Source: Sorghum bicolor (taxonomy: Eukaryota > Streptophyta > Magnoliopsida > Poales > Poaceae). Taken from it: DNA of 64,000 bases. The notes beneath the pieces were generated by a model. The model searched no databases. It saw only the letters and a program-made list of their open reading frames with translations, and was not told where the DNA came from. The DNA is taken from assembly GCF_000003195.3 (NCBI RefSeq), contig NC_012873.2, forward strand, positions 16,977,202 through 17,041,201, given 5' to 3'. Each line of letters opens with the position of its first letter. Within the stretch, counting starts at the first letter, position 1. Below are positions 18,837 through 43,874 of this stretch, in pieces. The position numbers and the translations under genes were made by a program.

Positions 18837-18849
18837 GCCCTCCCCCCTT
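18837..18849 (-). other. Element C polypurine tract
   Basis: Minus strand AAGGGGGGAGGGC immediately precedes the 3' LTR; a near-identical tract stands at 25913-25925 in element D. It is the expected primer for plus-strand DNA synthesis. Confidence 0.88.
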
Positions 18850-18878: not shown

Positions 18879-21864
18879 TTACTGATTTTCGAAGAAGGTT
18901 TTGTAAACTTCTTTTAAATAATCCTCCGTCTCCCAAGTGGCATCTTCTTCCCCGTGGTTGCTCCACAACACCTTGTAGAGTTTAACCACACGATTACGCG
19001 TTTCCCGTTCCTTGCGATCAAGAATCGCTACGGGTTTCTCCTCATACACCAAGTCTGACTTCAACTTGATATCTCGAATTTCCACTCGTTCCTCCGGTAC
19101 ACGAAGGCACTTCTTCAATTGTGATACGTGGAAAACGGGGAAGATAGCTCGAAGCGCAACTGGGAGTTGAACTTTGTATGCCACATTCCCTTTCTTTTCG
19201 AGAATCCGATAAGGTCCCACATAGCGAGGCGCAAGCTTTCGCTTGACTCCGAACCTTTGTACACCCTTCATCGGAGACACCTTGATGTACACATGGTCAC
19301 CAACCGAATACTCAATCGGCTTCCTTCTCTTCTCTGCATAACTTTTCTGACGAGCTTGAGCAGCTTCCAGGTGTTGCTGGATAACACGGACTTTCTGCTC
19401 CGCTTCGTTCACGAAATCGATGCCGTAGTATCTTCGCTCTCCAGCTTCTACCCAATTCAACGGGGTTCGACACTTTCGACCGTACAAGGCTTCAAATGGA
19501 GCCATTTTGATACTCTCCTGATAACTGTTGTTGTAGGAGAACTCAGCTAATGGCAACCACTTAACCCAAGAACCTTTTGATGAGAGAGCACATGCCCTCA
19601 ACATATCTTCAAGGATCTGGTTAACTCGTTCAGTTTGACCTGCTGTTTGGGGATGATAAGCAGAGCTGCGGACCAAATGAGTACCAATTTGCTCATGCAG
19701 ACATTCCCAAAAATGAGCAGTGAACTGTGGTCCACGATCAGATATGATTGTTCGAGGCACACCATACTGACGAACAATGTGCTCGAAATACAACTCCGCA
19801 TACTGATGGGGACGATAATCAGTTCGAACTGGAATAAATCGAGCAACCTTGGTCAAACGATCTACAACCACCCAGATGGAGTCATAACTCTTAACATAAG
19901 TTGGGAGTCCACTGATGAAATCCATGCTGACTTCTTCCCATTTCCAACCAGGAATTGACAAGGGTTGAAGCAAACCAGCTTTCATGTGAACAGCCTTCAC
20001 ACGACAACAATTGTCACAACGAGCGACAAAAGCCGCTATCTCCTTTTTCATCTTTGTCCACCAAAACAAAGGTTTCAGATCCTGATACATCTTGCTACTA
20101 CCAGGATGGATAGACATTTTGGATGAATGAGCTTCAGATAAGATCTGATTTCGCAGCTCGCGGTCTTTTGGGACCACAAGTCGATCCTTGAACCGAAGAA
20201 TTCCGTTTTCATCAACCCAGAAATGCTTGGTTTCTTCTTCTTTCATCTTTCTCTTGATATGGTGGATGCCTACATCTGTCTGCTGCAATTCGATGACTCG
20301 ATTGCGAATGGTACTTTCCAGAGAAATCTGGTTGAGCACAAGTGGATGCATAAGATGTGACAACAACGGATCTTCCACTTGGATTGAGTGACAGTGCGCT
20401 TTCCGACTCAAGGCATCCGCCACCACGTTTGCCTTGCCCGGATGATAGTGCACTTGGAGATTATAGTCTTTAATCAACTCAAGCCACCTTCGCTGCCGCA
20501 TGTTCAGTTCAGGTTGAGTGAAGATATACTTGAGGCTCTTATGATCGGTGTAGATATTACACAGATTACCCAGCAGATAATGCCTCCAGATTTTCAAAGC
20601 ATGAACAACTGCTGCCAATTCTAAGTCATGAGTGGGGTAATTGACCTCATGCTTTCGAAGTTGGCGCGAGGCATACGCGATAACGCGACCTTCCTGCATC
20701 AACACACAGCCTAAACCAATGCCGGATGCGTCACAAAAGACATCGAAAGGCTTCTCGATATCAGGTTGAGCTAGGACAGGAGCTGATGTCAACAGTGTCC
20801 TCAACTTGTGGAATGCCTCTTCACACTCAGGTGTCCACACGAACTTTTCATCTTTCTGAAGTAGACGAGTCATAGGCTTGGATATTTTGGAGAACTCCGG
20901 AATAAATCGACGGTAATACCCAGCCAGACCGAGAAAACTCCGAACCTCGTGTACCGAAGTTGGAACTTTCCAATCCAGCACCTCTTGCACCTTAGCCGGA
21001 TCCGCTGATATGCCTTCTTCAGATAAGACATGGCCCAAGAAAGGTACTTTCTTTAGCCAAAACTCGCATTTGCTAAACTTAGCATAAAGCTGATGTTCGC
21101 GCAAACGCGACAACACTACACGCAGATGCTCTGCATGCTCCTCTTCATTGCAAGAATATACCAAGATATCATCAATGAAGACCACTACAAACTTGTCCAA
21201 TTCGGGCATGAACACCGAATTCATAAGATACATGAAATGAGCAGGTGCATTCGTAAGCCCGAAGGACATGACAAGGTACTCATACAACCCATACCTCGTC
21301 GAGAAAGCCGTCTTAGGTATATCTTCGGGACGGATCTTGATCTGATGGTACCCAGATCGCAAATCAATCTTGGAGAATACCTTAGCTTTAGACAACTGAT
21401 CAAACAAGATGTCAATGTGAGGAAGAGGGTATTTGTTCTTGATAGTCACCGCATTTAGGGGACGATAGTCCACACACATGCGCAAAGATTGATCCTTCTT
21501 CTTCACAAAGATAGCCGGACAACCCCAAGGAGAAGAACTAGGACGGATAAGACCCTTCTGCAACAACTCATTTAGTTGGGTCTTAAGCTCAGCTAATTCA
21601 TTAGGCGGCATCCTATACGGTCTTCTAGAGATCGGAGCGGTGCCTGGAATCAATTCAATTTTAAACTCCACATCCCGATCCGGAGGAAGCCCGGGTAGAT
21701 CATCAGGAAAAACATCCGGAAACTCACACACCACCGGAATATCCTGAATAGCCTTAGAGGTAACTGCATTCACAGTGCTACGGATTCGAATATCACGAGG
21801 GAGTTGCACTAGAAATGCCTCCTTGGTATCTGGGTCTTTCAACATCACTACACGAGTGGTGGTG
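18879..21864 (-). CDS. Element C pol: RT, RNase H, integrase with chromodomain (5' end cut by element D)
   Basis: An uninterrupted frame of about 990 codons runs from the D insertion point to 18879. RT shows [53 protein letters not shown] and the catalytic FIDDILVYS. RNase H has [11 protein letters not shown] and YTDHKSLKY. The integrase has a HHCC zinc finger (ending CDNCCRVKA), then [17 protein letters not shown] and the NQILEDML region with its glutamate. The C-terminus has the GPYRILEK domain and a chromodomain ([32 protein letters not shown]). Chromodomains of this kind steer integration to heterochromatin. The frame is in phase with gag at 35836 across the D insertion. Confidence 0.96.
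21860..21864. repeat. Target-site duplication of element D, left copy (TGGTG)
   Basis: TGGTG stands directly before the LTR start TGTGGCAG and again at 35831-35835 after the LTR end ATGTTACA. Confidence 0.97.
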
Positions 21865-24800
21865 TGTGGCAGAACCCCCTAAGTGTTTGGGCCCACCGGC
21901 ACCTGCCATTGTCCTAAGGACCTCTGACGGTGATGCCGGGAGTCCTCCCACCTTAGAAGTCCGATGAGCATCGCGGGACGCTCATTCCACTGCTACCTGT
22001 GGCGTGCCTAGCTGGCTCGTTCTGACCACTAGCAATGGTCAAACAACGAGAACTGCTTCTTCTCGCCCTTACAGGATAGCAAGTGGCCACCTTAACACCA
22101 GGATCATTCGTTGCGAAGATAAAGCAGTAACTCAAACGACACAAGACTAAAATAATATTTCAGAGTAAAACAGCGGAAGTGTTACATAACTTAATTTACA
22201 AAAGGAGTTCTTCCAAATAGTAGAGTGTTATTACAAGCCTGGTCCAGCGGAGCAACTTAAACTTTAATACAGAGAATACAAATTTACAGACCCTGCCCAT
22301 GGGTCACGCTCACTCTTCTTCATCGTCAACCTCGACGACGGTCACACAACAGGGTCCGAAACAAGTCGGCTCCTGCGCTTCACCTGCAATAGGGGTATTG
22401 GAACCCTGAGTACGGGAGTACTCAACAAGACTTACCCGATGGGAAAAGAGGAGAACTTAGGGATGCAGGCTTAGGGTAGACAAGGGGTGGCTGAGCAAGG
22501 AGCCAAAATGTTTTGCTAAAAGCTTACTAGTAGTGCATCCTTGTTTTCAAGTTTTAACCGCGAATTCCTCTCCCGCAGAGGCCGAGGAGTTCGAGGATAG
22601 TTTAACTAGTTGTTCCCCACAGACGAATCCGTGAGTTCCTAATCCTAACTTCAAGTATTATTTATCGATGGCCATAGCTTCATGTCGCTATGAGTCCGGG
22701 AATTGGGATCCGAACCTCATGAGACATTTTCCCCTTTCTCATTTTATCATTCAGTTGCTTATTTACATACGATGAGGGTCGAAGGAATTGAGTCTCCCAA
22801 TCGGGGAGCAACGACGATTCGAATCGCTTAGCAATCCAGCTGGAGTTCCTAACCACCCGACATATGTAGAACCAAATCTTGCATATATCAACCCAAATCT
22901 AGCTCTCCCCAAATTTGACCAGGTTCGCGGCACCCGAGAGCACAGTACCCCACCATCCTACAGCCGATCTAGATGTTTTTCCGGTCATCTCAGATCCGTA
23001 AGGTGGGCACACGTTACTCCTGCCATCTTTCCACTCCCAGTGCGCGAGTAGCTGTTCGCGTCGAGGGATCACAAGACCGGGCTTACTGAGGGCAAGTGGC
23101 TAGTACTATAAATTCTCAACCCAGCAGGCCATCAACGGAACGGTCCTTAATCGACACAGTTGGAGACACTACTTTAAGACTCCATTCTTAAAGCAAGTCC
23201 ACCGACCGGTCTCAAATTGAAACATCATTGATCATAAGTGTATTCCACAACAACCCTTCAAACTTTGCTTGAAAACCTATCTAGTAGCAGGGCTAAGCAT
23301 CCCTACGCAGTTTTTAAAGTAAAACAGGTGCCAAGGACAAGATAAAAAATATCAAAGTAGTAAATGCAGCAAGTAGGTTCACCCAATTCTCAACTATCTA
23401 ATGCAGCATTTTCAATTCATAAGTGATAAAAGATTTAAAACATTCAAGGAGGGGTAATGCATCCGGGGCTTGCCTTGGTTGCAGGGCAGAGAGGGACCCT
23501 CGGAGACTTCCCAAGTCTCGGATCCGACTTCCTCGAACGGAGCACCGACCTCGGGGTTCGGTTCAACGGGCGCTCCTTCGGTCACGGACACTACACGCAA
23601 AATGATGAATGCTCATGATAGGTGTATGACAATTATGCAAGAAGGACCGAATCGAGTACAACTCGCCTTCTTGATGCAATACAGAATTATCACTAAATAA
23701 AGTTGCTTAATATCTTAATGTTTTTACCCAAAAGGTGGCATCTGTAAACTAAGACTTTATTTAATTCATATTTATTTTAAATTAGTAATTATTAATCCTA
23801 ATTACTTTAATTAATTCTTAATTAACTATTAATGACAGTAATTAAGCATTAAGGCTAAATAATAATAAAATGTCAAAGGTCATTAGGGTTAACGACCTCA
23901 GGTTATCACACAATCCCAAAATCACTCAACCCCAATTATGAGGAGCTAAACAATCACTATTTAATTATTTTGGAATTATTATTTAAGTGCTAAATAAGGA
24001 TTTATTAATGTTTTAATCAAATATTATCCAAATGCCACCAAATTTTGTGTGGAGCCCGGGAATACCACTCAGAGGCTCTCCACAATTTTTGGTGATTTTT
24101 GGACCTCCTAATAAATTACTAAAATTCCTAGAAGTTTTATTCACTAATTAAAGAGCCAATTTTTATAGACATGCAAACTATCAGAGAAATAAATTCTAAT
24201 ATTTTTCCTAGGCTCTATACATTTTCTGGAACCTACCCAAAAAGTTTCACTATTTTTGGACCACTACACAATTCAATATTCAAATTCAAATATCAAACAT
24301 TTTTAAACAAAAAGGAAAAAAAAAAGTGCACTGTGCAGTGCTGGCGGCCTGCTCGGACCCGGCCCAAGACGGCCCGCGAGCTCTCCCGCGCTCAGCGCCC
24401 TCTCCCTCTCTCTCTCACGCGGTCGCTGACGGGCGGGTCCCGCCCGTCAGCTCCGTCTCCTTCCTAGCGCCGCGGCTCCGGCGAGCTCCAGTGAGCCGTC
24501 GGCGAGCTCTCGGCCTCCGCGGTGAGACGCGTTAGCTTCCTCGACCTCCCGCGCACCCAGGGGCACCCTTTTCTCCCACTCTCCTCTATCCTAACCCCTG
24601 TGACCACGGGCACGGCGGACGGCCGTCTCGGCCGAGCAAACGCCGGCCAGTACGAGCGAGTAGAGCGTGACTTGAGCAGCGCAAAAGCACCAGGGGCTCA
24701 CCACGACCTCAACCGAGCAAGAAGCGGCAGCGGAGAGGCTCTGGCTGACGCTGGCCACGATGACGTGCTTGCGGTGGCGCTCGGCCGGAGTTGAGAAGGG

Positions 24801-25912
24801 AAACGGCTCGGGTGGGAGCTACGGTAGAGTAGAGCGTGTGTTTGGGGGTGCAATCGGTGGCGGGGCTCAAGGCGGAGCTGCTGGGGTGCTCAAATGGCTT
24901 GGAATGGCAACGGGTGAGGCGAATTTGGTCGGCGCAGGAAACTCGTCGGCGTCGGGGTTCAAGATAAAAAAGAGGGAACTCCGGCCACTCGGGGCTTTAT
25001 CCCCACGACAGAAGGCGGTTCGCGGATGAGGACGTCCACGCGAAGCACAGCAGCAAGCAGCTGCGTGGCCAGCTGCGTGGCGGCGTGCGCGGAGGCGGCT
25101 CTGCCCCGGCGGCAGAGCACCCCCCCTGCCGATCACTGTAGGAGTCCTCATCCACAGTTTGTCTTGCGAAATTCGACCAAAACTTGAACTAAAGTCAAAT
25201 TTCCACCAAAACGAAAGTTGTACAAAATTTTGTAAACTACAAATCATCTTTTGGTGGCCATAGCTGATTCCGAGTGGAAGATAGCCAATTTGGCTAAACA
25301 GTTTGGAATTTCAACTCAAATCGATGAAATTCAAATTTTTGAATTGGGGGCAAAATAGGATTTCCAAAATTACTTTTGTTTTTCCTAAACAACTTGAAAA
25401 ACTCCCAACATGAAAGTTGCTCAACTTTTTGTGCTCTACAACTTTCATGTTGACCACTTTTCAAAATTCCAAATGGATTTTGAATTGGGGGCTTAAGTTG
25501 GAAAAGGGGACACTTTTCGGAAATCTGTATTTTCAAAATTACTTTGAATTTTGTATTGAAACTTCAAAAACTCAAAACACCAAAGTTGTACATCTTGCCA
25601 AGAGCTACCACTTTGCTTTTGAACTCAACCACAAATTTTGCTTAGTTTTTGACTTATGCAAAAGGGGCAAATCTAGGATCCAGAAATCAGGGTTTTTCCC
25701 CCCCTTAGCTTTTCGGAAAATTTCCACCCTAGGGTTTAGCAAGCACACAAGCATCAACACACCACATAAGCACACTCTACCTCCCTAAGCTCAAGCAATA
25801 AAAATAAACTTGTTTTAAGTTGATGCATACAAATGTGCTTTAACAATTATGCTTTACAATGCTTATGATGACATGATCCGTTTTTAGTAACCGTAACATC
25901 AGAGATGTTACA
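21865..25912 (-). repeat. Element D 3' LTR (left LTR)
   Basis: Starts TGTGGCAGAACC and ends GATGTTACA. As in element C, an AT-rich block (about 23700-24330) adjoins a GC-rich, CpG-rich block (about 24340-25135). That block includes a perfect 25-bp palindrome (24426-24450). The last 700 bp carry repeated AT-rich phrases around AAAGTTG and CAACTTTC. Short ORFs within it recur in the other LTR and look like no known protein. Confidence 0.95.
24426..24450. repeat. Perfect 25-bp palindrome in element D left LTR
   Basis: Two 12-bp arms, CTGACGGGCGGG and its complement, flank a single T, giving a GGGTCCC centre. The same palindrome is at 34490-34514 in the other LTR. The C and E LTRs have weaker versions with GGGACCC centres near 17404-17430 and 56692-56717. 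Confidence 0.85.
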
Positions 25913-26116: not shown

Positions 26117-29100
26117 TCACGTGTTGTCCTGAAGAGAAGCGTGGAATTCAGGAAAATTCTCTAACAAGTAATCTTCAGATTCCCAGGTGGCTTCCTCTTC
26201 AGAGTGCTGGCTCCATTGTATCTTGTACCATTTGGTGGTTGTTCTTCGAGTAACTCTATCTTTCTGATCCAGTACTCGGATAGGATATTCCGAATAAGTT
26301 AGATCTGGTTCAAGTTCTACACCTTCAATATCTTGAACTCGGTCTGGTACCCGAAGACACTTTTTCAGTTGAGACACATGGAATACATTATGCACCCCGG
26401 ATAATCGTTCGGGCAGTTTAAGGCGGTAAGCGACCTGTCCACATCGGTCAATGATTGGAAATGGACCAATGTAACGAGGCGCTAACTTGCCTTTAACACC
26501 AAAACGATTTACTCCTTTCATTGGGGATACTTTCAAATACACATGATCACCTTTGACGAACTTTAATGGTCGACGTCTTTTATCAGCATAACTTTTCTGT
26601 CGAGACTGAGCAACTTTCAAGTTATTTTGGATTTGTTTCACTTTGTTCTCAGTCTCTTTCACTAGGTCAACTCCGAAGAACCATCTTTCTCCAGGTTCCG
26701 ACCAGTGTAATGGAGTTCGACATCGGCGACCATACAGTGCCTCAAAAGGAGCCATCTTGATACTCTCTTGGTAGCTATTATTGTAAGAAAATTCTGCTAG
26801 AGGCAAGCAGTCATCCCACTTATCTGGAAAATTCAGGGCACAAGATCTTAATAGATCTTCTAGGGTTTGATTCACCCTTTCAGTTTGTCCACCGGTTTGA
26901 GGGTGGTAGGCCGTGCTGTATAAAAGTTTAGTGCCCAGGGACTCGTGTAAACATTTCCAGAATTGGGAGACAAATTGTGTGCCTCTATCTGACACTATTG
27001 TCTTTGGCACCCCATGTAGACTTAGGATACGGTCAAAATAAATCTTAGCATAGGTGGAGGCAGGATACAATAGCTTTACAGGCAGAAAATGTGCTGTTTT
27101 GGTGAGACGATCTACTATGACCCAAATGGAATCAAAGCCCTTGGCCGTCTTGGGCAATCCTACTATGAAATCCATACTTATGTCATCCCATTTCCATGCG
27201 GGGATAGGCAAAGGTTGCAACTCCCCAGCGGACTTGAGATGAATAGCTTTGACCTTTCGACAGGTGTCACATTGGGCCACATAGCGAGCTATCTCTATCT
27301 TCATTTTTGTCCACCAAAACCTTTGCCTTAGGTCCTGATACATCTTATTGCTTCCCGGATGAATAGAATACCTCGTGGTATGAGCTTCATCTAGGATTTG
27401 TTGACGTAGCTCAGGTACCTTTGGAACCACTAACCGGTTCTTGAACCAAATTACTCCTGCATCATCCACCTTAAAGTCTGTGGGTGCTCTATTAGAAATC
27501 TTCTCTTTAAGATGTCTCATGCCTTTGTTTTCTTTTTGTGCCCTTATGATTTGAGCTTTGAGATTGAAGTCGATCTTTAAATTGGCAAGGCTTCCTTGGG
27601 AAATCATTTCTATTCCCAAGTTCTCTAGCTCTTGGCACAAAGTTATATCCCTAGGCGTCACTGTTAAGCAATTACAGTGAGCCTTACGACTGAGGGCATC
27701 CGCTACTACATTTGCCTTTCCCGGGTGATAATGCACCTCAAGGTCGTAATCTTTAATTAACTCTAGCCACCTTCGTTGGCGCATATTAAGCTCAGCTTGA
27801 GTAAAGATATACTTCAAGCTTTTGTGATCTGTATATAGATGACATGTGTTCCCCAACAGATAATGACGCCAGATCTTTAATGCATGTACCACGGCGGCTA
27901 GTTCAAGATCATGGGTCGGGTAATTCTCTTCATGGGGTTTGAGTTGTCTGGAAGCATATGCAATTACGCGACCCTCCTGCATTAGCACATAGCCTATCCC
28001 GATTCCTGATGCATCACAATATACATCAAAGGGTTTTTCAATATCTGGCTGGGCTAAGACAGGTGCAGTTGTCAACAACCTTTTCAGAGTCTGAAAGGCT
28101 TGCTCACATTGGGGTGACCAAACAAACTTAGTTTGATTTTTGAGCAAGGTTGTGATTGATTTGGCGACTCTGGAAAAGTTCGGGATAAAACGACGGTAAT
28201 ATCCCGCCATACCCAGAAAACTACGGACCTCATGTACCGTAGTCGGGGGTTTCCAATTCAACACATCTTCTACCTTGCCTGGGTCTACAGCGACTCCCTC
28301 CGCTGATAATACATGACCCAGGAAATGGACTTTGTCCAGCCAGAACTCACATTTGCTGAACTTGGCGTATAGCTGATGTTCCCTGAGACGAGTCAGCACG
28401 ACCCTCAAATGTTCAGCATGTTCTTTCTTAGTTTTGGAGTAAATCAAAATGTCGTCAATAAAGACTACAACAAATTTATCTAGTTCTGGCATGAAGACAG
28501 AGTTCATCAGGTACATGAAATGGGCCGGTGCATTGGTCAACCCAAAGGACATCACCAAGTATTCATATAGCCCGTAACGGGTTGTAAAAGCTGTCTTGGG
28601 CACATCTTCCGGCCTAATTTTAATTTGGTGGTACCCCGATCTCAAGTCAATTTTTGAGAATACTTTGGCCCCAGCTAGCTGGTCAAACAATAAGTCAATG
28701 CGGGGCAATGGGTACTTGTTCTTAATCGTCACCTCATTTAGGGGACGATAGTCGACACATAGCCTTAATGTCTGATCTTTCTTTTTCACAAACAAGGCTG
28801 GGCAACCCCATGGAGAAGAACTGGGCTGAATAAAACCTTTCTGTAATAACTCTTGTAATTGGGTTTTTAATTCGGCCAGCTCTTTCGGTGCCATTCTGTA
28901 GGAACTTCGAGATATTCGGGCTGTTCCTGGTTTCAATTCTATACTGAATTGTACATCCCGGTCCGGAGGCAGACCTGGTAAGTCTTCAGGAAATACATCC
29001 GGAAAATCTCGAACTACCGGAATATCTTCGACTTCAGACACATTAGCGGCATGAACTTGCCCAATTGTCCGCTTGGGAGTAACTAATTGAATTAGCAAAT

Positions 29101-29173
29101 AAGAATTCTCATTGGGCAATGGGATTTTAATGGTTCGATGCAAAGTGTCTAGCACAACCCCTCGTTGCGCCAT
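26117..29173 (-). CDS. Element D pol: protease end, RT, RNase H, integrase with chromodomain
   Basis: An open frame of 1018 codons starts at ATG 29173, directly after an amber codon (29174-29176) that cuts it from gag. RT carries [33 protein letters not shown] and catalytic FIDDILIYS. RNase H has [11 protein letters not shown] and YTDHKSLKY. Integrase shows the zinc finger end CDTCRKVKA, then [17 protein letters not shown] and NQTLEDLL. The C-terminus has GPFPIIDRC and a chromodomain ([32 protein letters not shown]). All catalytic acidic residues are present. Downstream of the amber codon it could be made only by readthrough or reinitiation. Confidence 0.96.
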
Positions 29174-30638
29174 CTAGTTCATGCCCAAGATGACATCAAT
29201 TTCTTGGTCCTTAAGAACAATCATGCTAGTAGAAAAATTATGCCCACCAAATTCGATGGGTACTTGGTGAACCATTTCTTTGGACATCAGCCGTCCTCCT
29301 GGCGACTGTATATAAAAATGATCTTGTGTTTCCCCAATGGGTATGCCATGCTTTAACACAAAGGTGCGATTAATGAATGTATGAGATGCACCAGAATCGA
29401 AGAGCATTAAAGCAGGATGTTTCGCAACAGGAAACGTACCCATCATCACTGGTTCACCCTCTGGAATCGTCTCCACTTCAGTATGGAAGACTTGCCCTGT
29501 CTTCTTTACCGGTCTACCTTTCTGTACCTGTTGCCCTTTTTGAGCCCCAGTCCTGAACTGACTCGGCTGGGGTTGGCCCATAGGTGGCCTTTGAAAGGTA
29601 GGGTTGGTTTGGCGGGGAAAAGGGCACTCTTTAGAGAAATGCCCAGGCTTACCACAATTGAAGCAAGGGTAATTGTGGCTGGGTGAAGCAGTGGGGCGAA
29701 CACCCGGGGCGTTCGGCTGGCGTGGTGCAAAGGCGATGGCAGTAGGTCGAGAATATACCTGCTGCCCGGGTCTGTACTGTGGAGGGGAGAAAAGACCACG
29801 ATAAGGTAACGGCGCTTGGAAACGTCCGTGGCCCTGTGGATGATAAATGATTCTCTGGCGCTTTTGACCGCGACCAGAGAAAGAAGAGGAAGCAGCCTTC
29901 TTCTTGGCTTCCTTGTGTTTTCTATTCTTTTCCTCTGAGGCGATCGCAATATTTACCGCCTCATAGAAAGTAGCATTTTGGCAAGTGGTCATCATGGTCT
30001 GAAGTTTAGTATTTAGACCACGCATGAAACAGGCTTTCTTCTTTCTGTCAGTGTTCACATGATCCGTGGCATATTGAGAGAGATGATTAAACCTTGCCAC
30101 GTACTCCATAACACTTTTATCGCCTTGCTGCAAGGCGAGAAACTCTTCGGCCTTCATGGCCATGAGCCCTTCGGGGATGTAGTGGGTGCGAAACGCGTCC
30201 CTAAACTCGGTCCAGGTAACCTGGTGACCGGGAGCTTGGATAGCTAAGAAGTTCTCCCACCAGGCACCTGCAGCTCCCCGAAGCTGCTGGGCTGCAAACA
30301 GGGGCTTCTGAGTTTCTGAACACTGAATCAAACTGAACTTATGCTCCATGGTTCGGAGCTTCTAAAGGCTCATCGGCCTTAGCGAACACCGGGGGCCTGG
30401 TCTCGGTAAAGTTCACATACCGAGTCTCTCCGTCCCCGTTGCGCGGTGCCCTGAAGTTTGGAGCAGGGTGTGGTTGACGCTGTGCTAGCTCGCGCAGTAA
30501 GCGAGCGTTATCAGTTGTGGCACTTAGCAGAACAGCAATGGCGTCAGCCAAAGAAGGTGGAGCAGGTGGAGGGTTGGGGATATCATCCCCTCCCTGGGAT
30601 GTCCCAGCTCCCTCAGATCCGCGAGTACGCATCGGCAT
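29174..30638 (-). pseudogene. Element D gag and aspartic protease (one frameshift, one amber codon)
   Basis: Gag starts at ATG 30638 with a Pro-rich acidic N-terminus and shifts frame near 30340-30350, where a few bases seem lost. From there to 29177 are the Retrotrans_gag core (AAGAWWENFLA, FRDAFRTHYIPEG, EEFLALQQGDKSVMEY, ARFNHLSQYA) and a basic linker. A CCHC zinc knuckle (CFNCGKPGHFSKEC) and the protease (LMLFDSGASHTFI, MIVLKDQEIDVILG) follow. A TAG at 29174-29176 stands where element C has a TGG codon, so tryptophan probably became stop by one G-to-A change. Particle formation by this copy would need help. Confidence 0.93.
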
Positions 30639-30851: not shown

Positions 30852-31556
30852 CTAATCGGTGTGGCCAGAGCTGTAGCCCGGGTCGTCATTGCCATCATCC
30901 TGATTACCCCCTGGGTTGTGGTCATCGGAGTCGGACTCCTCTTCATCACTGAGGCCGGGGTCGGGTTCCCCATCGTCTGCCAACTCGCCATCCGTATCCA
31001 TTTCCCCTTCGCCGGGAGGTGGGTGGAGTTGATGATACAGATCAAATGCAATATCACGATATTGCATAGCTAGGTCATTGACTGTATCTAAGTGATGTGC
31101 CAGCTCCAGTTTCTCCAGCTGGAGCTGGTCCTCTCTTTGCCACGCGACATCCCGCTGTGCGGTGACCGTGGCCGCCATCTTTACATACAAATCCTTAAGA
31201 TACCTTGCCTTGCCCAACTTTGCGTTCATCCTAGTTAGCTCATGCCTATGTGTGCTCCTAGCTTCTTCCTCTCGGGCAATGGCTGCATTCCGCTCCTCCA
31301 CCATCCGGGACAACATAGCCTCACAGTTCTCTGTAGCTTGTTTTTCTTTGGCCAGTTGAGCTTTAAGTTTACCAATCTCCATAACATTGTACATTCTCTC
31401 TCTCATCACCTCAGTCAACTCGGCGGACAACCTGTCCACCTCCTGCTGAGGCGGTGAACGGCTACTACTGGCTTGATCACTGCGTGGAGCTAGCTGGTGT
31501 CGGGGAACTCCTTTTGGACCGGTCCGCTTACGCGGGGTCTGCTTCTGACGAGCCAT
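30852..31556 (-). CDS. Element D extra ORF before gag: histone H3-tail-like N-terminus, coiled coil, acidic tail
   Basis: A 234-codon open frame lies between leader and gag, 213 bp upstream of the gag ATG. After Met the protein matches the pattern ARxKQTxRKxTGxK of the histone H3 tail with no gap (10 of 14 identical, including the K4, K9 and K14 positions). After a one-residue insertion it continues PRxQLA (H3 positions 16-21). No histone fold follows. Instead residues about 38-150 form a charged coiled coil, then LYHQLHPPP and a strongly acidic tail (residues about 185-234) with DEEESDSDD. Element C has an ORF at the same place with the same coiled-coil, LHP and acidic-tail layout but a different N-terminus. 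No function is known to me. Confidence 0.88.
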   Translation of the reverse strand: MARQKQTPRKRTGPKGVPRHQLAPRSDQASSSRSPPQQEVDRLSAELTEVMRERMYNVMEIGKLKAQLAKEKQATENCEAMLSRMVEERNAAIAREEEARSTHRHELTRMNAKLGKARYLKDLYVKMAATVTAQRDVAWQREDQLQLEKLELAHHLDTVNDLAMQYRDIAFDLYHQLHPPPGEGEMDTDGELADDGEPDPGLSDEEESDSDDHNPGGNQDDGNDDPGYSSGHTD

Positions 31557-31929
31557 CCTGTAGAGGGTAAGTTTAGATTAGTAAGAGAGACCTTAAAGGT
31601 TAGCAAGAATAGGATTGATTCTATTCACCCAACCCAAACAAGGAGGAAGGAACTTAACCAGTTAATACATCATGATGCATGCACGAACTTACGATTCCTA
31701 CTAACAATTCGTAACGTTATTACTTTAAACTTTTACAACATAGGGCAATACTTTATGTTGCTCCTCCATACCACTTCCAAAAATTCTAAGAAAGCCTATA
31801 GACAGGGGTAGATTAGGACTAAGCACTTGGACTCAAAATAGGCAGGTTCATAGTATTAGATCCAAACGAATTTTGAAGTTTTTCAATAGTTACAGCAGTC
31901 ATCTTAGCAACGAATGCTCTGATACCAGC
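31557..31929 (-). other. Element D 5' leader with tRNA-iMet primer-binding site (31916-31927)
   Basis: The 373 bp between the 5' LTR and the extra ORF contain no gene. TGGTATCAGAGC on the minus strand (31916-31927) begins two bases from the LTR end and is the exact standard plant initiator-methionine tRNA primer site. Confidence 0.95.
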
Positions 31930-34489
31930 TGTGGCAGAACCCCCTAAGTGTTTGGGCCCACCGGCACCTGCCATTGTCCTAAGGACCTCTGACGGTGATG
32001 CCGGGAGTCCTCCCACCTTAGAAGTCCGATGAGCATCGCGGGACGCTCATTCCACTGCTACCTGTGGCATACCAAGCTGGCTCGTTCTGACCACTAGCAA
32101 TGGTCAAACAACGAGAACTGCTTCTTCTCGCCCTTACAGGATAGCAAGTGGCCACCTTAACACCAGGATCATTCGTTGCGAAGATAAAGCAGTAACTCAA
32201 ACGACACAAGACTAAAATAATATTTCAGAGTAAAACAGCGGAAGTGTTACATAACTTAATTTACAAAAGGAGTTGTTCCAAATAGTAGAGTGTTATTACA
32301 AGCCTGGTCCAGTGGAGCAACTTAAATTTTAATACAGAGAATACAAATTTACAGACCCTGCCCATGGGTCACGCTCACTCTTCTTCGTCGTCAACCTCGA
32401 CGACGGTCACACAACAGGGTCCGAAACAAGTCGGCTCCTGCGCTTCACCTGCAACAGGGGTATTGGAACCCTGAGTACGGGAGTACTCAACAAGACTTAC
32501 CCGATGGGAAAAGAGGAGAACTTAGGGATGCAGGCTTAGGGTAGACAAGGGGTGGCTGAGCAAAGAGCCAAAATGTTTTGCTAAAAGCTTACTAGTAGTG
32601 CATCCTTGTTTTCAAGTTTTAACCGCGAATTCCTCTCCCGCAGAGGCCGAGGAGTTTGAGGATAGTTTAACTAGTTGTTCCCCACAGACGAATCCGTGAG
32701 TTCCTAATCCTAACGTCAAGTATTATTTATCGATGGCCATAGCTTCATGTCGCTATGAGTCCGGGAATTGGGATCCGAACCTCATGAGACATTTTCCCCT
32801 TTCTCATTTTATCATTCAGTTGCTTATTTACATACGATGAGGGTCGAAGGAATTGAGTCTCCCAATCGGGGAGCAACGACGATTCGAATCGCTTAGCAAT
32901 CCAGCTGGAGTTCCTAACCACCCGACATATGTAGAACCAAATCTTGCATATATCAACCCAAATCTAGCTCTCCCCAAATTTGACCAGGTTCGCGGCACCC
33001 GAGAGCACAGTACCCCACCATCCTACAGCCGATCTAGATGTTTTTCCGGTCATCTCAGATCCGTAAGGTGGGCACACGTTACTCCCGCCATCTTTCCACT
33101 CCCAGTGCGCGAGTAGCTGTTCGCGTCGAGGGATCACAAGACCGGGCTTACCGAGGGCAAGTGGCTAGTACTATAAATTCTCAACCCAGCAGGCCATCAA
33201 CGGAACGGCCCTTAATCGACACAGTTGGAGACACTACTTTAAGACTCCATTCTTAAAGCAAGTCCACCGACCGGTCTCAAATTGAAACATCATTGATCAT
33301 AAGTGTATTCCACAACAACCCTTCAAACTTTGCTTGAAAACCTATCTAGTAGCAGGGCTAAGCATCCCTACGCAGTTTTTAAAGTAAAACAGGTGCCAAG
33401 GACAAGATAACAAATATCAAAGTAGTAAATGCAGCAAGTAGGTTCACCCAATTCTCAACTATCTAATGCAGCATTTTCAATTCATAAGTGATAAAAGATT
33501 TAAAATATTCAAGGAGGGGTAATGCATCCGGGGCTTGCCTTGGTTGCAGGGCAGAGAGGGACCCTCGGAGACTTCCCAAGTCTCGGATCCGACTTCCTCG
33601 AACGGAGCACCGACCTCGGGGTTCGGTTCAACGGGCGCTCCTTCGGTCACGGACACTACACGCAAAATGATGAATGCTCATGATAGGTGTATGACAATTA
33701 TGCAAGAAGGACCGAATCGAGTACAACTCGCCTTCTTGATGCAATACAGAATTATCACTAAATAAAGTTGCTTAATATCTTAATGTTTTTACCCAAAAGG
33801 TGGCATCTGTAAACTAAGACTTTATTTAATTCATATTTATTTTAAATTAGTAATTATTAATCCTAATTACTTTAATTAATTCTTAATTAACTATTAATGA
33901 CAGTAATTAAGCATTAAGGCTAAATAATAATAAAATGTCAAAGGTCATTAGGGTTAACGACCTCAGGTTATCACACAATCCCAAAATCACTCAACCCCAA
34001 TTATGAGGAGCTAAACAATCACTATTTAATTATTTTGGAATTATTATTTAAGTGCTAAATAAGGATTTATTAATGTTTTAATCAAATATTATCCAAATGC
34101 CACCAAATTTTGTGTGGAGCCCGGGAATACCACTCAGAGGCTCTCCACAATTTTTGGTGATTTTTGGACCTCCTAATAAATTACTAAAATTCCTAGAAGT
34201 TTTATTCACTAATTAAAGAGCCAATTTTTATAGACATGCAAACTATCAGAGAAATAAATTCTAATATTTTTCCTAGGCTCTATACATTTTCTGGAACCTA
34301 CCCAAAAAGTTTCACTATTTTTGGACCACTACACAATTCAATATTCAAATTCAAATATCAAACATTTTTAAACAAAAAGGAAAAAAAAAGTGCACTGTGC
34401 AGTGCTGGCGGCCTGCTCGGACCCGGCCCAAGACGGCCCGCGAGCTCTCCCGCGCTCAGCGCCCTCTCCCTCTCTCTCTCACGCGGTCG

Positions 34490-34514
34490 CTGACGGGCGG
34501 GTCCCGCCCGTCAG
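34490..34514. repeat. Perfect 25-bp palindrome in element D right LTR
   Basis: The same 12+1+12 palindrome as at 24426-24450, with a GGGTCCC centre, unchanged in this LTR. Confidence 0.85.
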
Positions 34515-35409
34515 CTCCGTCTCCTTCCTAGCGCCGCGGCTCCGGCGAGCTCCAGTGAGCCGTCGGCGAGCTCTCGGCCTCCGCGGTGAGACGCGTTAGC
34601 TTCCTCGACCTCCCGCGCACCCAGGGGCACCCTTTTCTCCCACTCTCCTCTATCCTAACCCCTGTGACCACGGGCACGGCGGACGGCCGTCTCGGCCGAG
34701 CAAACGCCGGCCACTACGAGCGAGTAGAGCGTGACTTGAGCAGCGCAAAAGCACCAGGGGCTCACCACGACCTCAACCGAGCAAGAAGCGGCAGCGGAGA
34801 GGCTCTGGCTGACGCTGGCCACGATGACGTGCTTGCGGTGGCGCTCGGCCGGAGTTGAGAAGGGAAACGGCTCGGGTGGGAGCTACGGTAGAGTAGAGCG
34901 TGTGTTTGGGGGTGCAATCGGTGGCGGGGCTCAAGGCGGAGCTGCTGGGGTGCTCAAATGGCTTGGAATGGCAACGGGTGAGGCGAATTTGGTCGGCGCA
35001 GGAAACTCGTCGGCGTCGGGGTTCAAGAAAAAAAAGAGGGGACTCCGGCCACTCGGGGCTTTATCCCCACGACAGAAGGCGGTTCGCAGATGAGGACGTC
35101 CACGCGAAGCACAGCAGCAAGCAGCTGCGTGGCCAGCTGCGTGGCGGCGTGCACGGAGGCGGCTCTGCCCCGGCGGCAGAGCACCCCCCCCTGCCGATCA
35201 CTGTAGCAGTCCTCATCCACAGTTTGTCTTCTTGCGAAATTCGACCAAAACTTGAACTAAAGTCAAATTTCCACCAAAACGAAAGTTGTACAAAATTTTG
35301 TAAACTACAAATCATCTTTTGGTGGCCATAGCTTATTCCGAGTGGAAGATAGCCAATTTGGCTAAACAGTTTGGAATTTCAACTCAAATCGATGAAATTC
35401 AAATTTTTG

Positions 35410-35664
35410 AATTGGGGGCAAAATAGGATTTCCAAAATTACTTTTGTTTTTCCTAAACAACTTGAAAAACTCCCAACATGAAAGTTGCTCAATTTTTGTG
35501 CTCTACAACTTTCATGTTGACCACTTTTCAAAATTCCAAATGGATTTTGAATTGGGGGCAAAATAGGATTTCCAAAATTACTTTTGTTTTTCCTAAACAA
35601 CTTGAAAAACTCCCAACATGAAAGTTGCTCAATTTTTGTGCTCTACAACTTTCATGTTGACCAC
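35410..35664. repeat. Tandem duplication in element D right LTR
   Basis: A unit of about 114 bp beginning ATTGGGGGCAAAATAGG and ending TGTTGACCAC occurs twice, separated by 27 bp. The left LTR has one copy. The TTGAATTGGGGG string present before both copies is a likely point of template switching. Confidence 0.88.
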
Positions 35665-35830
35665 ACAAGCATCAACACACCACATAAGCACACTCTACCT
35701 CCCTAAGCTCAAGCAATAAAAATAAACTTGTTTTAAGTTGATGCATACAAATGTGCTTTAACAATTATGCTTTACAATGCTTATGATGACATGATCCGTT
35801 TTTAGTAACCGTAACATCAGAGATGTTACA

Positions 35831-35835
35831 TGGTG
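35831..35835. repeat. Target-site duplication of element D, right copy (TGGTG)
   Basis: Matches 21860-21864 exactly and lies directly after the LTR end. Confidence 0.97.
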
Positions 35836-37552: not shown

Positions 37553-38638
37553 CTACACTCCAGGCTCGTCATCCGAATCAGCGTCGAAGATCGCCTCTCC
37601 ATCCTCGTCGCTAACCGGCTCAAGCTCCTCGTCCTCCACGTCCTCGTGTAAAGGTGGTGCAGCCGCTGCTGGTCCATCAACCTCCATACCATCATCATCG
37701 GCCACAATCACCTGAGGTCCCACCTCTGGATACACGGGTATAGGGCGAGGAATAGGGTGTAGCAAGTTGTTGAGACGGTGAATCTCCACAAGACCAGCCT
37801 CAATCTGACCCTGTAGATAGTTCTCCCGCTCAAGCGACTGAACTCGGTGCATCTCCCATGCTCGGCGCCTGTTCTCCGACACACGGAGTGCAGTATCCCT
37901 CTCACGGGTGAGCTGCACCAAGCGCTCCTGCAAAGTCTCCCTCTCTCGAGCTAACTGGCTCATCTGATCCTGCTTATGATCTCTCTCTCTGATGGCCTTC
38001 ACCCACTGCTGTCTACGGTACTCCGCTATGTCCTCCCAGTCATTGCGGTCCTTCTGAGTTTGCTCCAGGAGTCTAGCTTGCTTGCGAAACTTGCGAGCAC
38101 GCTTTTCAGCCTTCCGCTGCATCTCCTGGGCCCTGCGAACAGCCACCATCACCTGTGCATAGGTGCCCTCTCGCTGACTGATCAGCTTGAGTACAGCCAT
38201 CATAGCACTCATAGCAGGACTAGAGCTCTCAGCTCTCTCTCCTCTGCCTCGAACCAAAGCACAACCATCAGCCTGTTTCCACTCCGCGGCTGCTGGGTCA
38301 GCACTAGGAATGGAGGCCGCTGGTCCTCTCGTCAGCTCGTCACCACACCTCTGACATATATCTAGCAGGATAGTCTGGGCTGCAACCTGAGCTGCCTCCC
38401 AGGGAGTCTGCCCATCTGAGCTGCATGTCCAGCCTGTCCATGCAGGCTTGTCGCCATGTGGAGGGACAACTCCCTGCACAGCAAACCACTGGATCCCTCC
38501 TGTGCTCTCCATCTCCCACCAAGAATACTGAGGTGGCTCAGTATACCCAACAGTCCGTAACACTCTCCAGAGCAGGGTAGGAGTGCCAAACTCATGCAAG
38601 AAAGTGTCACTGGGACGAGGTGAAGCGGGTGCGTCCAT
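37553..38638 (-). CDS. Element C extra ORF before gag: possible dsRBD-like domain, coiled coil, acidic tail
   Basis: A 361-codon open frame between leader and gag. Residues about 20-95 have the order helix, three strands, helix of a double-stranded-RNA-binding domain: PPQYSWWEME, IQWFAVQGVV, WTGWTCSSDG, then the alanine-rich helix EAAQVAAQTILLDIC. This is my reading of the pattern, not a database match. Residues about 140-300 are a long Arg/Gln/Glu-rich coiled coil (QRKAEKRARKFRKQARLLEQ and beyond). Then LNNLLHPIP and an acidic tail ending DADSDDEPGV. The coiled coil, LHP motif and acidic tail parallel the D ORF at 30852-31556. Unbroken, so perhaps under selection until recently. Function unknown. 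Confidence 0.82.
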   Translation of the reverse strand: MDAPASPRPSDTFLHEFGTPTLLWRVLRTVGYTEPPQYSWWEMESTGGIQWFAVQGVVPPHGDKPAWTGWTCSSDGQTPWEAAQVAAQTILLDICQRCGDELTRGPAASIPSADPAAAEWKQADGCALVRGRGERAESSSPAMSAMMAVLKLISQREGTYAQVMVAVRRAQEMQRKAEKRARKFRKQARLLEQTQKDRNDWEDIAEYRRQQWVKAIRERDHKQDQMSQLARERETLQERLVQLTRERDTALRVSENRRRAWEMHRVQSLERENYLQGQIEAGLVEIHRLNNLLHPIPRPIPVYPEVGPQVIVADDDGMEVDGPAAAAPPLHEDVEDEELEPVSDEDGEAIFDADSDDEPGV

Positions 38639-39461
38639 CTGTGGAAAGGAATAGGATTACCATGGGTAAAAGAGGATTAGTTGAAGCAACATTTATTTAT
38701 TTAAAAAGGGACGAAATTGCAAGGGAAGGAGCAGACAAAATGTATGTATGAATGCGACATGATGCATGCACGAACCGTACGTCCTCACAAACTTAGAAAA
38801 TTAATATTCTAACGGATATACGGTGGCATACATTCGTCTCTCGATACGGTAACTATCGGTTTACACGTGCGCTGTTAGAGTACCTGCAGAAAACTTCATT
38901 TCAGCCCAACAGTTCCCAATATATATCACTCAAGAAAGCAGTAAACTAAGTGCACATTGCTTGGACATGCCCAACATGCCCCAACAATGACACCACAACT
39001 ACCCGAGAAATTAAATGCTCCCCAATTAAGTTTCTTTCGTGGCTCCATGGTTTCGACATGTGACCACTCCAGAAAACCACCGCGAACACTCCCCTAGATC
39101 GCCGTTTGGACGATCATGCTCTCACAGCTCACACTTACCTGAGCGTAGGTGCGACGTTGCATGATTTAAATCTAGCGACATATGTGGCTAATTCACATAT
39201 GAAGGCTACCTCCACCATTAGACCACAGGGTAGCATAGTGCGGTCATCACACATCCATACCTGAGTACTGCCGGAGATGCATAAATAAAACCCCCCAAGT
39301 CAGTACTTAAATAGCCACCTAGAGTCCTTATATGGGCAAGGAGGATTCGACCACTGGCATAACTTAATTATTTGTTTTACACCATTTTATTTAAAAAAAA
39401 TTCTTTTGTTTTAAATACACAAACGCTGCATTTATAATGCTGAACTTGCTCCGATGCCAGC
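38639..39461 (-). other. Element C 5' leader with primer-binding site (39448-39459)
   Basis: 823 bp between the 5' LTR and the extra ORF without coding signal. On the minus strand TGGCATCGGAGC (39448-39459) begins two bases inside the LTR border. It differs at two positions (T to C, A to G) from the standard initiator-methionine primer site seen in D. Confidence 0.8.
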
Positions 39462-42400
39462 TGTCACAGAACCGACCAAATTATAAGAGTTCAAGTGCAG
39501 AAACGATCGTCAAACAATCAAGTTTCTAAACTTGAGCCCATATAATCCCGGTAGTCAATCGAAATCACGAAGGACTTCAAACCAACTCGCAACAAACCAA
39601 GATCGTAATAGTTCAACATAAATACAACGAATGTTACATGGTCATTCATTGCCGTCGAAGCGGCACCACATCGGAGTATTAAGTTATTACAACACTTGTT
39701 CGAAGTAGCGGAAGCAAAATAATTACACACACTGGTTCAAAGTTCAGTTCACAAGTTTGTTACTGCCAGAGTCTAGGTCATCCTTCCAAAAGCATCATAG
39801 ACGAGAAGATTAGAGAACCGTGCCCAACGGTTAGTCCTCATCCCCAGCAGGATGGAGACAGGTCTTGCAGAAACCGTCATAGAAAATATCATCTGCAACA
39901 GGTGGGAATAAACCCTGAGTACGAGGATGTACTCAGCTAGACTTACCCGTCTAGTAAAACATAAAAGACACCAAAGATCATGCAAGGCTGAATATCAAGT
40001 GGAGTTGGTTGACTCACTCTTTTGCCAAAAGCTTAAGTTACAACTAAATTAGTTTGGGAGCATCATCTTTATTTATCATCAGCCTACCACTAGATTAGCA
40101 CCTGTACTACAACACATCACTTGATTATTACAAACAATAATAACCATACCAAATTCATCATATGTTCTTCTTGCTATCATCATTATCATGAACCAAGTTC
40201 ATTAGTGAATGCTACGTTTGCCGCTGCTCTGTCAAGTTCTCACTAACCGGGAGAGACGGCGATTCGAATCGAATTCCTATCCAGCTGGAGGTTTATTCCT
40301 AGCACTCACCCAAGCATCCCCTGCCGGAGAGCCAACGGGTCACCTTTGGTACAACTCAGGAATCGCGGCTCCGATCAGCGCCGCACTCCCAGGGCTACCA
40401 CTCTGCCAGGGAGGTCAGGAATTTTAACTCACCTGCCTTTGGGCTTACGCCAATGGTCCCCCGCACACCGCACTTCCTCCGGTAGTGCGCACTTTATACT
40501 TGCCGGTCTTCCGGCCTGAGTCATACTACTCGGCTTCGCGGTCGGAACGAGTTATCCGGCCAACTAAGTGTCAGGCATGCGTTCAACATGACAAGAGGAC
40601 GTACAACGATCGGTCCTTAGCTGCCACAGACGGAGTTACTACAAACTTGCAAAACTCCGCCCGGCTTAAATCAATTTAATCAGGTTCCATCCACGATAGC
40701 ACATATAGACCATCGCGACCCGACACAACCCTATATCGCGCGGATGACAGAATATCACCCGACTTCTACCGGTTAAAGCATAACTAAGCTGCTACTCGGA
40801 CCTAACTCTACAACCACGGAGGGTGAGTTATCTGGACAGGGATAGAGTAGAATGCAGCAACATTTTCATCACAACTCCTATACGTAATGCATCAATAGAT
40901 ATAACGTATTAAGTAAACTTTCGAAAATAGAGGAGGCTTAGAATGCTCCGGGGCTTGCCTTTCACGAACGATGCTGGCTCGTGATTCGGGCACTCAACTT
41001 CTTCTTCGGGCTCCTCGAGTCCGGCTTGCTGGACCTCCACCTCCTGGCTGCCTTCCTGGCCTTCGGGGTTCGCTTGGAGCTCGAAGGAAACTGCCACGCC
41101 CGGTGCACCTATTGCATGCTCGATGAATGAGAAGGTGCACATGCTACAGATGAATGCTTAATAACACAAGCAACTCACTGTACACTCATTTACGGAGCAA
41201 GAGTTATATTAACTCACATGAATAAACAAGTTAACATAACCCAAAACCTATCATGGCACCAAAGCAGCAAACGACACAAAACAAGTATGCTCAGTAAATA
41301 AATCATAATTATAGATAGACAGGTCCAACAAACACGAGTCAAGACATTCTGGAAAGCTTAGGAAATTGTCTACAACTCATCTTTAAACATGACAGCAAGA
41401 TTCAAACATTAAACTAGTCATTTTAACAAAGTTCCAGGTTCTGTCCCAGAAAAACAGAGAACCCCTATTTCTGGAACCCAACTTGGAACAGCTATAACTT
41501 TTAAACTACTTGGCCAAATGACCTCAAATTTAAACCACAGTTAGTTCAACAAGTTTAGAACAACTTTGTTTTATACAAGTTTCACAGAAAGTCAAGTTAT
41601 CATTAAGCAAAGTTAAATTACTCACTTGCTGTCCAGACAGCATTTAACCCTATAGTTAATTATTTAATGATATGATCAAAACACAAACCATGCCATATGA
41701 CTCATGAGCACAAACATATTACAAGGTCACCAGATCATCAGTTGAAAACCCCAAAACAATTACTTAACAAGGCATTTATTAATTAATTTTAGATAAGGCA
41801 TATTTACAAGATATTAGTTAAAGTGCTCAGAAAAATCTACAAAAATTACAGAGGCACAAGTATAACATCAGATCACCACCATAAAAATTTCAGGACCATT
41901 GCACATGCCAAATTAAAGATATGCATTTAACATGTATCAAGGCATTTATTTCATAAATTCATAGACATGACTTATATAGTGTCAAAAAACAGATTTCAGA
42001 TTATTTATATCTTAGGAATACCATAAACAAGTTTACCACCAAAATAGAGCACCAGCCTAAGCACCAATTATTTTATGTGATTTAATTAAAGAAACAAGCC
42101 ATATTTCAAACACAAATTACATATCACAACTGCAGTGCTCCAAAAATCATGAAATAATTATCACAGCACTCTAATGCCATGCAAAGACCACCATAAAATT
42201 TTCAGAGCAAACTAATCAGTAAAACCAGAGATATGCATTTATCCATAAATAACAAGATTAAATCCTTAATAAATAATTTCTCAGAAAACATGATTCATTT
42301 TATATTTTTATTAAATACTAGCCATCTCAAGAAACAACACAAAATTTGTTTCACAATTTTTGGATCACTAGAACTAGAGATATGATTTTTACAAAATCAG

Positions 42401-43869
42401 CTCAAACTCTGATTTAAACAAAGGAGAAAGAGAAACTGACAGAGGGGACCCGCGCGTCAACAGACCCCACCTGCCAGTGACCCGGAAGCAGAGGCGCGGC
42501 TTGACCGCCGGAGATCTCGCCGACGGCGAGGTCTCGGCGCTGGCCAAGGGCACCATCGTGCTCCCCACTGCATTCCGCATCTAGCGGTACCCAAAACCCT
42601 AACTCTACTGAGCTCTAGGTACCTCGCCCTCGCGAATGGCGGCACGGCGGTGGTGCGCGGCCGACCGCCGGCGTCTCTGGCCGGAGACAGGGCAGAAGAG
42701 AACGAGGACGAGCAACAGCAAGACCTAGCGAAGCTTTTGGGACAAGAATGAGAAGGAATGGTGGACTACAGAGCCCTGGCCACGACGCCGGTGGCCATGG
42801 CGGAACTCCGGCGAGGTAAGCTCGCGTCGGAGCAGGCAATGCGGGCTCACCGAGGCTCGGCAGTCGCAACCAGCTCGACGACGGTGGAGAGGAGAGGCTT
42901 GCGGAGCGCTGGACCGAGCTGCTTGGCCGGAGACACGGAGATGTGCGCGCGCGAGCTCGCCGAAGCAACGGCGGCGACGCGGAAACGACAACGCGCGAGA
43001 GAGAGAGGACACCGGGAGCGGAAATGGCTCTGTCCACGCGACCGGGGCGCCGGGGCGAGATGAAGGACGCGCGGAGGACTGACGGGCGGGGCCAACGGCG
43101 ACGTACGGACGCCACGAGTCCAACACGCGGCACACCGGCGAGCTTCCCCTGACTGACGACGACGCGATTCAGTTTCCCCCGAGCCGACTGAAACTCGATT
43201 TTGCCCGACGATTTACTCCCTAATCACTCGATGATTTTGCTGGCTAATTGCTCCATGCTGGAGAGCTACACGAGTACTCCAACATTGCTTACAAGATCAA
43301 GGCTTGATTCGCTCTAGAATTCAAACGGGAAGGTGAAGAACACCCCCTCGAGCAAACTGCAAAGCACCCAGGACTTAGAAAATTTTCTAAGTGTTGAAAA
43401 CAGCCCCAAATCTGCCTTGTGGGCCACTTTTGAGCTATTTATGATCATTTTCATGAGAGATGGCCATAAAACAACTTTTGTTCCTTATAAACTTTGCTAC
43501 AACTTTGCTGTAGGAAGTTTTGACATGCAAACATTTTATGAAACACTTTTTAAAAGCCTAAGCAAAAGAGGTCTCTAGGGCCTATTTGCATAAGTAGGAC
43601 TTAAGTGATTATTTTGGAGAAGTGATCAACATGAACATTGTTCCCAAGATTAAGTTAAGCATAGATAAGCTATTTACCAAGGCATTAAGCACAAACACTA
43701 GCATTGTTCACTCAAAAATAAGCATAGGAAGCCTATTTAAGCAATTTAAAACACATTTTTGCAAAGAATGACATGTCTCAAGATAGATGATGATCATGGA
43801 TGCTTTGAATAAATGATGATGCTCATGCTATGCACATGTTTGATGCAACCATAACACTGGGGTGTTACA
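39462..43869 (-). repeat. Element C 5' LTR (right LTR)
   Basis: 4408 bp, matching 14427-18836 with a 4-bp deletion near 41690, a 2-bp insertion near 43458 and about 26 substitutions by eye. The GC-rich block is at about 42420-43160. As the 5' LTR of a minus-strand element it would carry the active promoter. Confidence 0.96.
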
Positions 43870-43874
43870 GATCC
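43870..43874. repeat. Target-site duplication of element C, right copy (GATCC)
   Basis: Exact match to 14422-14426, adjoining the LTR end GTTACA. Confidence 0.97.

Follow-up and report, generated by a model that had tools for sequence, protein, structure and literature searches.

Genomic context of the extra ORF

The window, by which we mean the whole 64,000-nucleotide stretch of Sorghum bicolor DNA that was analyzed, contains two recent chromovirus insertions, one nested in the other. The inner one, here called element D, is a young chromodomain retrotransposon whose copy in the window lies on the minus strand, inserted within the gag region of an outer element. Its 5′ LTR occupies positions 31930..35830 (−) and its 3′ LTR positions 21865..25912 (−), with 23 mismatches between the two in a 3632-column alignment piece, and the element is flanked by the target-site duplication TGGTG (21860..21864 on the low side and 35831..35835 on the high side). 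A stretch of 120 bases is present twice in the 5′ LTR (35405-35664), as identical copies 140 bases apart, and once in the 3′ LTR (25337-25456) at 81%. The primer-binding site, TGGTATCAGAGC (31916..31927, −), is of the initiator tRNA-Met type.

Pfam matches in element D cover gag, protease, RT, RNase H, integrase and chromodomain, with the integrase core and the chromodomain below the cut-offs. From the ORF list and Pfam, the part with gag capsid, zinc knuckle and protease was placed at 29174..30349 (−), and pol at 26117..29173 (−). In the copy in the window, gag is split over two frames, its N-terminal part lying upstream in the other frame, and pol is cut off from gag by an in-frame stop. The integrase chromodomain that an earlier, sequence-only reading of this DNA had attributed to the element was recovered (26144..26296, −; PF00385, E 3.2e-5, 24.2 bits against a cut-off of 25.1). 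It is 52% identical to the chromodomain-like end of the outer element and aligns weakly with Clr4 (E 0.03). With the aromatic cage assigned here by HP1 numbering, two of its three positions are presumably occupied by Y and W, and the remaining one by H. The Tekay-type label used here for element D derives from its layout, its chromodomain and the label given in the sequence-only reading.

Between the 5′ LTR and gag, in the same sense and as the first long ORF after the 5′ LTR, element D carries an extra ORF of 234 amino acids (30852..31556, −; stop codon at 30852-30854). Its codons 1-26 (31479..31556, −), on the evidence of translation, profile search, shuffles and a table of families, encode a tail resembling that of histone H3, with a net charge of +8. 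Residues 36-177 (31026..31451, −) are modeled by AlphaFold2 as a single long helix or coiled-coil rod, with pLDDT > 90 in nearly all 10-residue blocks, and residues 178-234 (30855..31025, −) form an acidic disordered C-terminal tail with a net charge of −21 (AlphaFold2, composition). The model therefore comprises a disordered N-terminal tail, one helix and a disordered end, as the sequence-only reading of a coiled coil and an acidic tail in place of a histone fold had supposed. A histone fold was rejected, since AlphaFold2 gives a single helix and the histone family (PF00125 fold) is not among the Pfam hits of either this protein or that of the second family described below. A Foldseek search against viral models returned nothing at E 0.001, and one scan of viral contigs for the short D-type relative P0060 yielded no relatives of it. 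The D ORF has the features of a Tekay 5′ additional ORF, namely a sense orientation, a place between 5′ LTR and gag, a long helix and disordered segments. The D ORF is also abundant: all 150 genomic places scored, out of 1487 candidates in the 709 Mb of its own genome, match at 97-100%, some with stops, which gives at least 150 copies.

Resemblance of the N-terminus to histone H3

After the initial Met, the D ORF reads ARQKQTPRKRTGPK, which is gap-free with H3 residues 1-14 and identical at 10 of the 14 positions, and after one inserted residue it continues PRHQLA, so that the N-terminal H3 match claimed from the letters alone holds. The positions of K4, K9 and K14 are all present. When the N-terminal register is fixed and one insertion is allowed, the tail has 15 identities to H3 in 24 positions. 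It departs from H3 at A7→P and S10→R, two replacements that would be expected to weaken HP1-type recognition.

We considered whether such a tail could be a chance or convergent basic sequence unrelated to H3. In favor of this, the D ORF alone gave no significant match in the PDB: H3 rows came at E 0.3-1.8, behind an unrelated enzyme whose match lies in the rod (E 0.078). However, among 200,000 shuffles of the same residues the best had 12 identities and none reached 13, against the 15 observed. Further, a profile built from the tails of 13 relatives retrieved H3 from the PDB at E 2e-7 to 3e-5. The best 60 of its 139 rows were all H3, H3 variants (one named Cse4) or H3-tailed chimeras, and the matches in these 60 began at residues 1-5 of the H3 entries. 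The tail of a second family from the same genome, taken by itself, matches H3 gap-free at E 7.7e-7. Chance or mere basic composition is thus refuted as the origin of the tail by shuffles, profile and family-2 tail together, and we consider it scarcely credible; judging from these comparisons, the H3 likeness of the N-terminus is real and beyond chance. The same three lines identify the segment as an H3 N-terminal tail sequence.

A second family in the same genome

A search of the same genome with a distant relative, P0048, uncovered a second family (family 2), whose 5′ ORF encodes 347 amino acids (L131:286-1329, minus). Its majority start, ARTRLTARKSTGGRAPRHQLAARSSRHK, is gap-free with H3 and identical at 17 of the first 21 residues. 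It has R in place of K4, K14 and K23 and H in place of K18, and K9 stays; K9 is present in all 27 family-2 tails read, which represent 25 distinct places, two of them read twice. In this family, which matches H3 most closely, the flanks of K9 are also kept (TARKSTGG). Downstream stretches were fetched for two family-2 ORFs: one (L152) contains an RT region 72% identical to the pol of element D, and the other (L151) gave no match.

Two entries for one place, L111 and L145 (C4:27028537-27028998), show a family-2 variant of 173 amino acids in which the H3 tail is retained and most of the middle module is missing, together with the beginning of the rod. This variant may illustrate how the short D-type architecture came about.

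Relatives and conservation of the tail

A first protein search with the D ORF gave 58 relatives, and a profile search, from which the best 120 of 2086 were taken, enlarged the set. As the sharing of 5-residue words could favor tail-bearing relatives, we also searched with the body only and took the best 120 of 2530; the relatives listed are thus the best-scoring part of the family only. The first search and the profile search together gave 162 proteins, of which 124 fit an anchor pattern for the end of the tail, 120 of them in full register and with 85 unique tails. Of the remaining 38, P0162 carries part of a tail that escaped the pattern, P0007 has an unrelated start, and the rest begin downstream of the tail or at its end; most of the proteins lacking a full tail in these searches would appear to be fragments or late start calls. 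The body-only search added 63 new proteins. The anchor pattern fit 36 of these, some of which begin inside the tail or, like P0183, differently. The other 27 were sorted by eye into six with a tail missed by the pattern, 17 beginning inside or downstream of the tail, and P0167, P0172, P0174 and P0180, which start differently.

Six body clusters were built from the 116 of 120 proteins with bodies of at least 110 residues. Between clusters, mean identity is 68% for the tails and 33% for the bodies, and the tail is the more conserved part in 15 of 15 pairs; the H3-like N-terminus pointed out in the sequence-only reading is therefore conserved between families with diverged bodies. Adding family 2 yields a table of seven families (5, 1, 2, 74, 21 and 13 proteins plus the 27 family-2 tails), in which position counts have to be read with two of the seven holding just 1 and 2 proteins. 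T6, R8, K9, T11, G12, P16 and L20 hold the majority in every family, Q19 and A21 in six. Among the lysines, K9 is the only one with this status in 7/7 families, compared with K4 in 5/7, K14 in 3/7, K23 in 1/7 and K18 in none. The sequence-only reading had stressed K4, K9 and K14; all three are kept in family D, but across the relatives only K9 holds, and the seven-family table led us to reject the emphasis on K4 and K14 beyond family D. In the largest body cluster, most tails have an extra residue at the start and R at position 4.

At position 18, H takes the place of K as the majority residue in all seven families. Because this replacement is common to all of them, the simplest origin is that a real H3 tail was captured a single time, a proposal that is drawn from protein similarity and the shared H18.

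Conservation at this point of the element might also be caused by a nucleotide signal at the ORF start. Between the D and family-2 tails, 16 of 25 aligned codons encode the same amino acid, and 11 of these 16 differ synonymously, so that the peptide rather than the DNA is conserved. A nucleotide signal was rejected on this ground, and the D copies also argue against it, with 21 unique silent changes in the 26 tail codons against 153 in the other 208.

Within families the picture is mixed. Across 110 D copies (of the 150 places), the tail has 8 replacement or stop changes against 111 silent ones and the body 279 against 1205 (p = 0.0002 when cells are counted), and when only unique changes are considered the contrast is weak (7:21 vs. 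98:153, p = 0.10); these loci were drawn from places ranked by protein score, which under-counts amino-acid changes in both regions. In 12 family-2 copies (14 less one duplicate place and one misaligned copy), the tail has 25 replacement and 20 silent changes and the rest of the ORF 219 and 367. These copies are old and decaying, and no extra constraint on the tail is seen among them. Neutral change since their insertion, or a relaxation of selection in this family, may explain the pattern, and the counts are evidence against a strong present constraint on the tail there. Selective retention of an H3-like motif with its modifiable lysine, as expected of a histone mimic, is indicated between families, among the D copies only when cells are counted, and not within family 2.

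Architectures and a tail-less relative

The outer element of the window, with LTRs at 14426-18837 and 39461-43870 that are 99.3% identical over 4414 columns, has a 5′ ORF of its own that encodes 361 amino acids (37553..38638, −). It belongs to the same rod family and has no H3 tail, which demonstrates that tail-less relatives exist. The family-2 protein is 33% identical to it over 305 columns (E 1e-35), and the match begins at residue 22, that is, at H3 position 21; the outer element therefore has all but the tail. Since its LTRs are nearly identical, the tail is dispensable for transposition in that lineage. AlphaFold2, run on the single sequence, gives the 361-aa protein a helix at residues 160-293, with low confidence elsewhere.

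The three architectures (short D-type, family 2 and outer element) have the rod in common, as well as a region with an LHP motif and an acidic end after it. Family 2 and P0060 share the tail (15/26) and the rod (50/116), and the middle module of family 2 is not shared with P0060. According to PMC11728184, the 5′ ORFs of maize Tekay and sorghum Sb7 show a weak DRBM-like structural match; in the family-2 middle module, Pfam did not find a domain of the DRBM type.

Expression signals

A splice-acceptor-like CAG lies one base upstream of the ATG of the D ORF (31558..31560, −), and CAGG precedes the ATG in every D-family sequence with flank (31 of 31). In family 2, the ATG is immediately preceded by AG at each of 23 distinct places, 16 of which read TGCAGCAG, and the 361-aa ORF of the outer element begins right after CACAG. 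The D leader from the primer site to the ORF (31557-31929, −) contains seven upstream ATGs. It is a reasonable inference that the D ORF is expressed from a spliced mRNA using the acceptor-like CAG.

Possible roles of the H3-like tail

Plant retrotransposons are silenced through H3K9 methylation tied to DNA methylation. We hypothesize, tentatively and at somewhat less than even confidence, that the captured H3 tail is used as a multivalent ligand or pseudo-substrate of the H3K9 type. In this model, the D-type protein would be made from spliced or leader-initiated RNA, enter the nucleus and multimerize through its rod, which would expose many tails, and host H3K9 methyltransferases or readers would then engage the exposed tails as an H3K9-like ligand or pseudo-substrate. 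The use that we prefer is that the H3K9 silencing machinery would be diverted from the element; alternatively, readers of the K9 type might tether the protein, and thus the particle or the integrase, to heterochromatin. Our first choice is diversion, with heterochromatin tethering second and an import signal third.

Of the lysines, K9 alone is kept in every one of the seven families, which fits a role centered on K9 rather than on K4 or K14. Also in favor of a mimic are the modeled exposure of a disordered tail on a helix with an acidic end and the presence of a chromodomain in the same element. Counting against it are the A7→P and S10→R replacements in D, the additional residue and the R4 of the largest cluster, the absence of tail constraint among family-2 copies and an outer element that has no tail; a simple decoy would in addition be vastly outnumbered by the cell's own H3.

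The H3 tail is itself an import signal. The segment might thus be only a ready-made basic stretch for nuclear import or nucleic-acid binding, to which its charge of +8 would be suited, and other Tekay 5′ ORFs are predicted to be nuclear (PMC11728184). However, a plain basic signal needs neither the uncharged residues that are kept (T6, T11, G12, P16 and L20 in 7/7 families, Q19 and A21 in 6/7) nor the change of the basic K18 to H in 7/7, and we regard this explanation as rather unlikely. A somewhat lower probability is given to a role as an assembly or targeting tag instead of a decoy, with the tail bound either by the integrase chromodomain of the same element or by readers of heterochromatin. 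Element D does have a chromodomain that keeps the cage Y and W in its weak Clr4 alignment, and group II chromodomains are without a known partner according to PMC3350952 and PMC6317226, but the third cage position is H, and the outer element, with an end that is likewise chromodomain-like, has no tail to be bound. More doubtful again is that the tail is a neutral, functionless relic of the capture of an H3 gene: the family-2 tail gathers replacements faster than the rest of the ORF, and the outer element manages without it, yet the tail exceeds the body in conservation in every cluster pair despite synonymous turnover, with K9 as the majority residue in every family.

The reading that we favor, the tail as a K9-type ligand or pseudo-substrate, can be extended to a fuller scenario, in which one capture gave rise to a K9-only mimic that would be displayed in many copies on the acidic-ended rod of a modular accessory protein, built with or without a middle module, and would counter silencing at both the RNA level and the H3K9 level; we consider this scenario unlikely.

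Relation to known systems

An abstract by Steinbauerova and colleagues in Genetica (2011) reportedly described extra ORFs of some Poaceae chromoviruses as partly similar to a histone H3 gene, and is said to have proposed gene transduction or recombination as their origin. That work reportedly likewise concerned 5′ extra ORFs in grass chromoviruses and, unlike the present analysis, is not known to have included K9-centered conservation, a comparison of architectures or a mimic function. The H3 resemblance of grass chromovirus extra ORFs is therefore probably already known, and the statement in the sequence-only reading that no description was known is probably wrong. What appear to be additions are the K9-centered conservation confined to the tail, the three architectures and the existence, in this very genome, of a family with a gap-free match.

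Histone H3 mimics are known from the NS1 protein of influenza H3N2 (ARSK), from SARS-CoV-2 ORF8 (ARKS) and from G9a, each a few residues long. As in these viral and cellular cases, an H3-like peptide with a modifiable lysine is here part of a foreign protein; the difference is that the peptide spans about 21 residues, is located at the exact N-terminus (in one family), probably derives from H3 and belongs to a retrotransposon.

Tekay 5′ additional ORFs have already been described (PMC11728184, PMC6317226). Those in the former likewise lie upstream of gag and have a long helix and disordered parts, and that paper reports that the sunflower Tekay ORF has no amino-acid similarity to grass 5′ ORFs; nowhere does its main text use the word histone. 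The word is likewise absent from a 2026 review (PMC13317346), and histone H3 is not mentioned in a portion of the review PMC7264820. Among the open-access papers listed by our searches, we recognized no description of an H3-tail mimic in a plant retrotransposon. A plant transposon protein that counters silencing has a precedent in VANC of VANDAL transposons, which are sequence-specific anti-silencing proteins by the abstracts of PMC5735166 and PMC10398659; such an activity is only proposed for the H3-tail protein, and the opening lines of those abstracts do not mention an H3 tail.

If the proposed role is true, a high-copy element, with at least 150 copies of the ORF at 97-100%, could be a direct antagonist or a passenger of the H3K9 silencing pathway.
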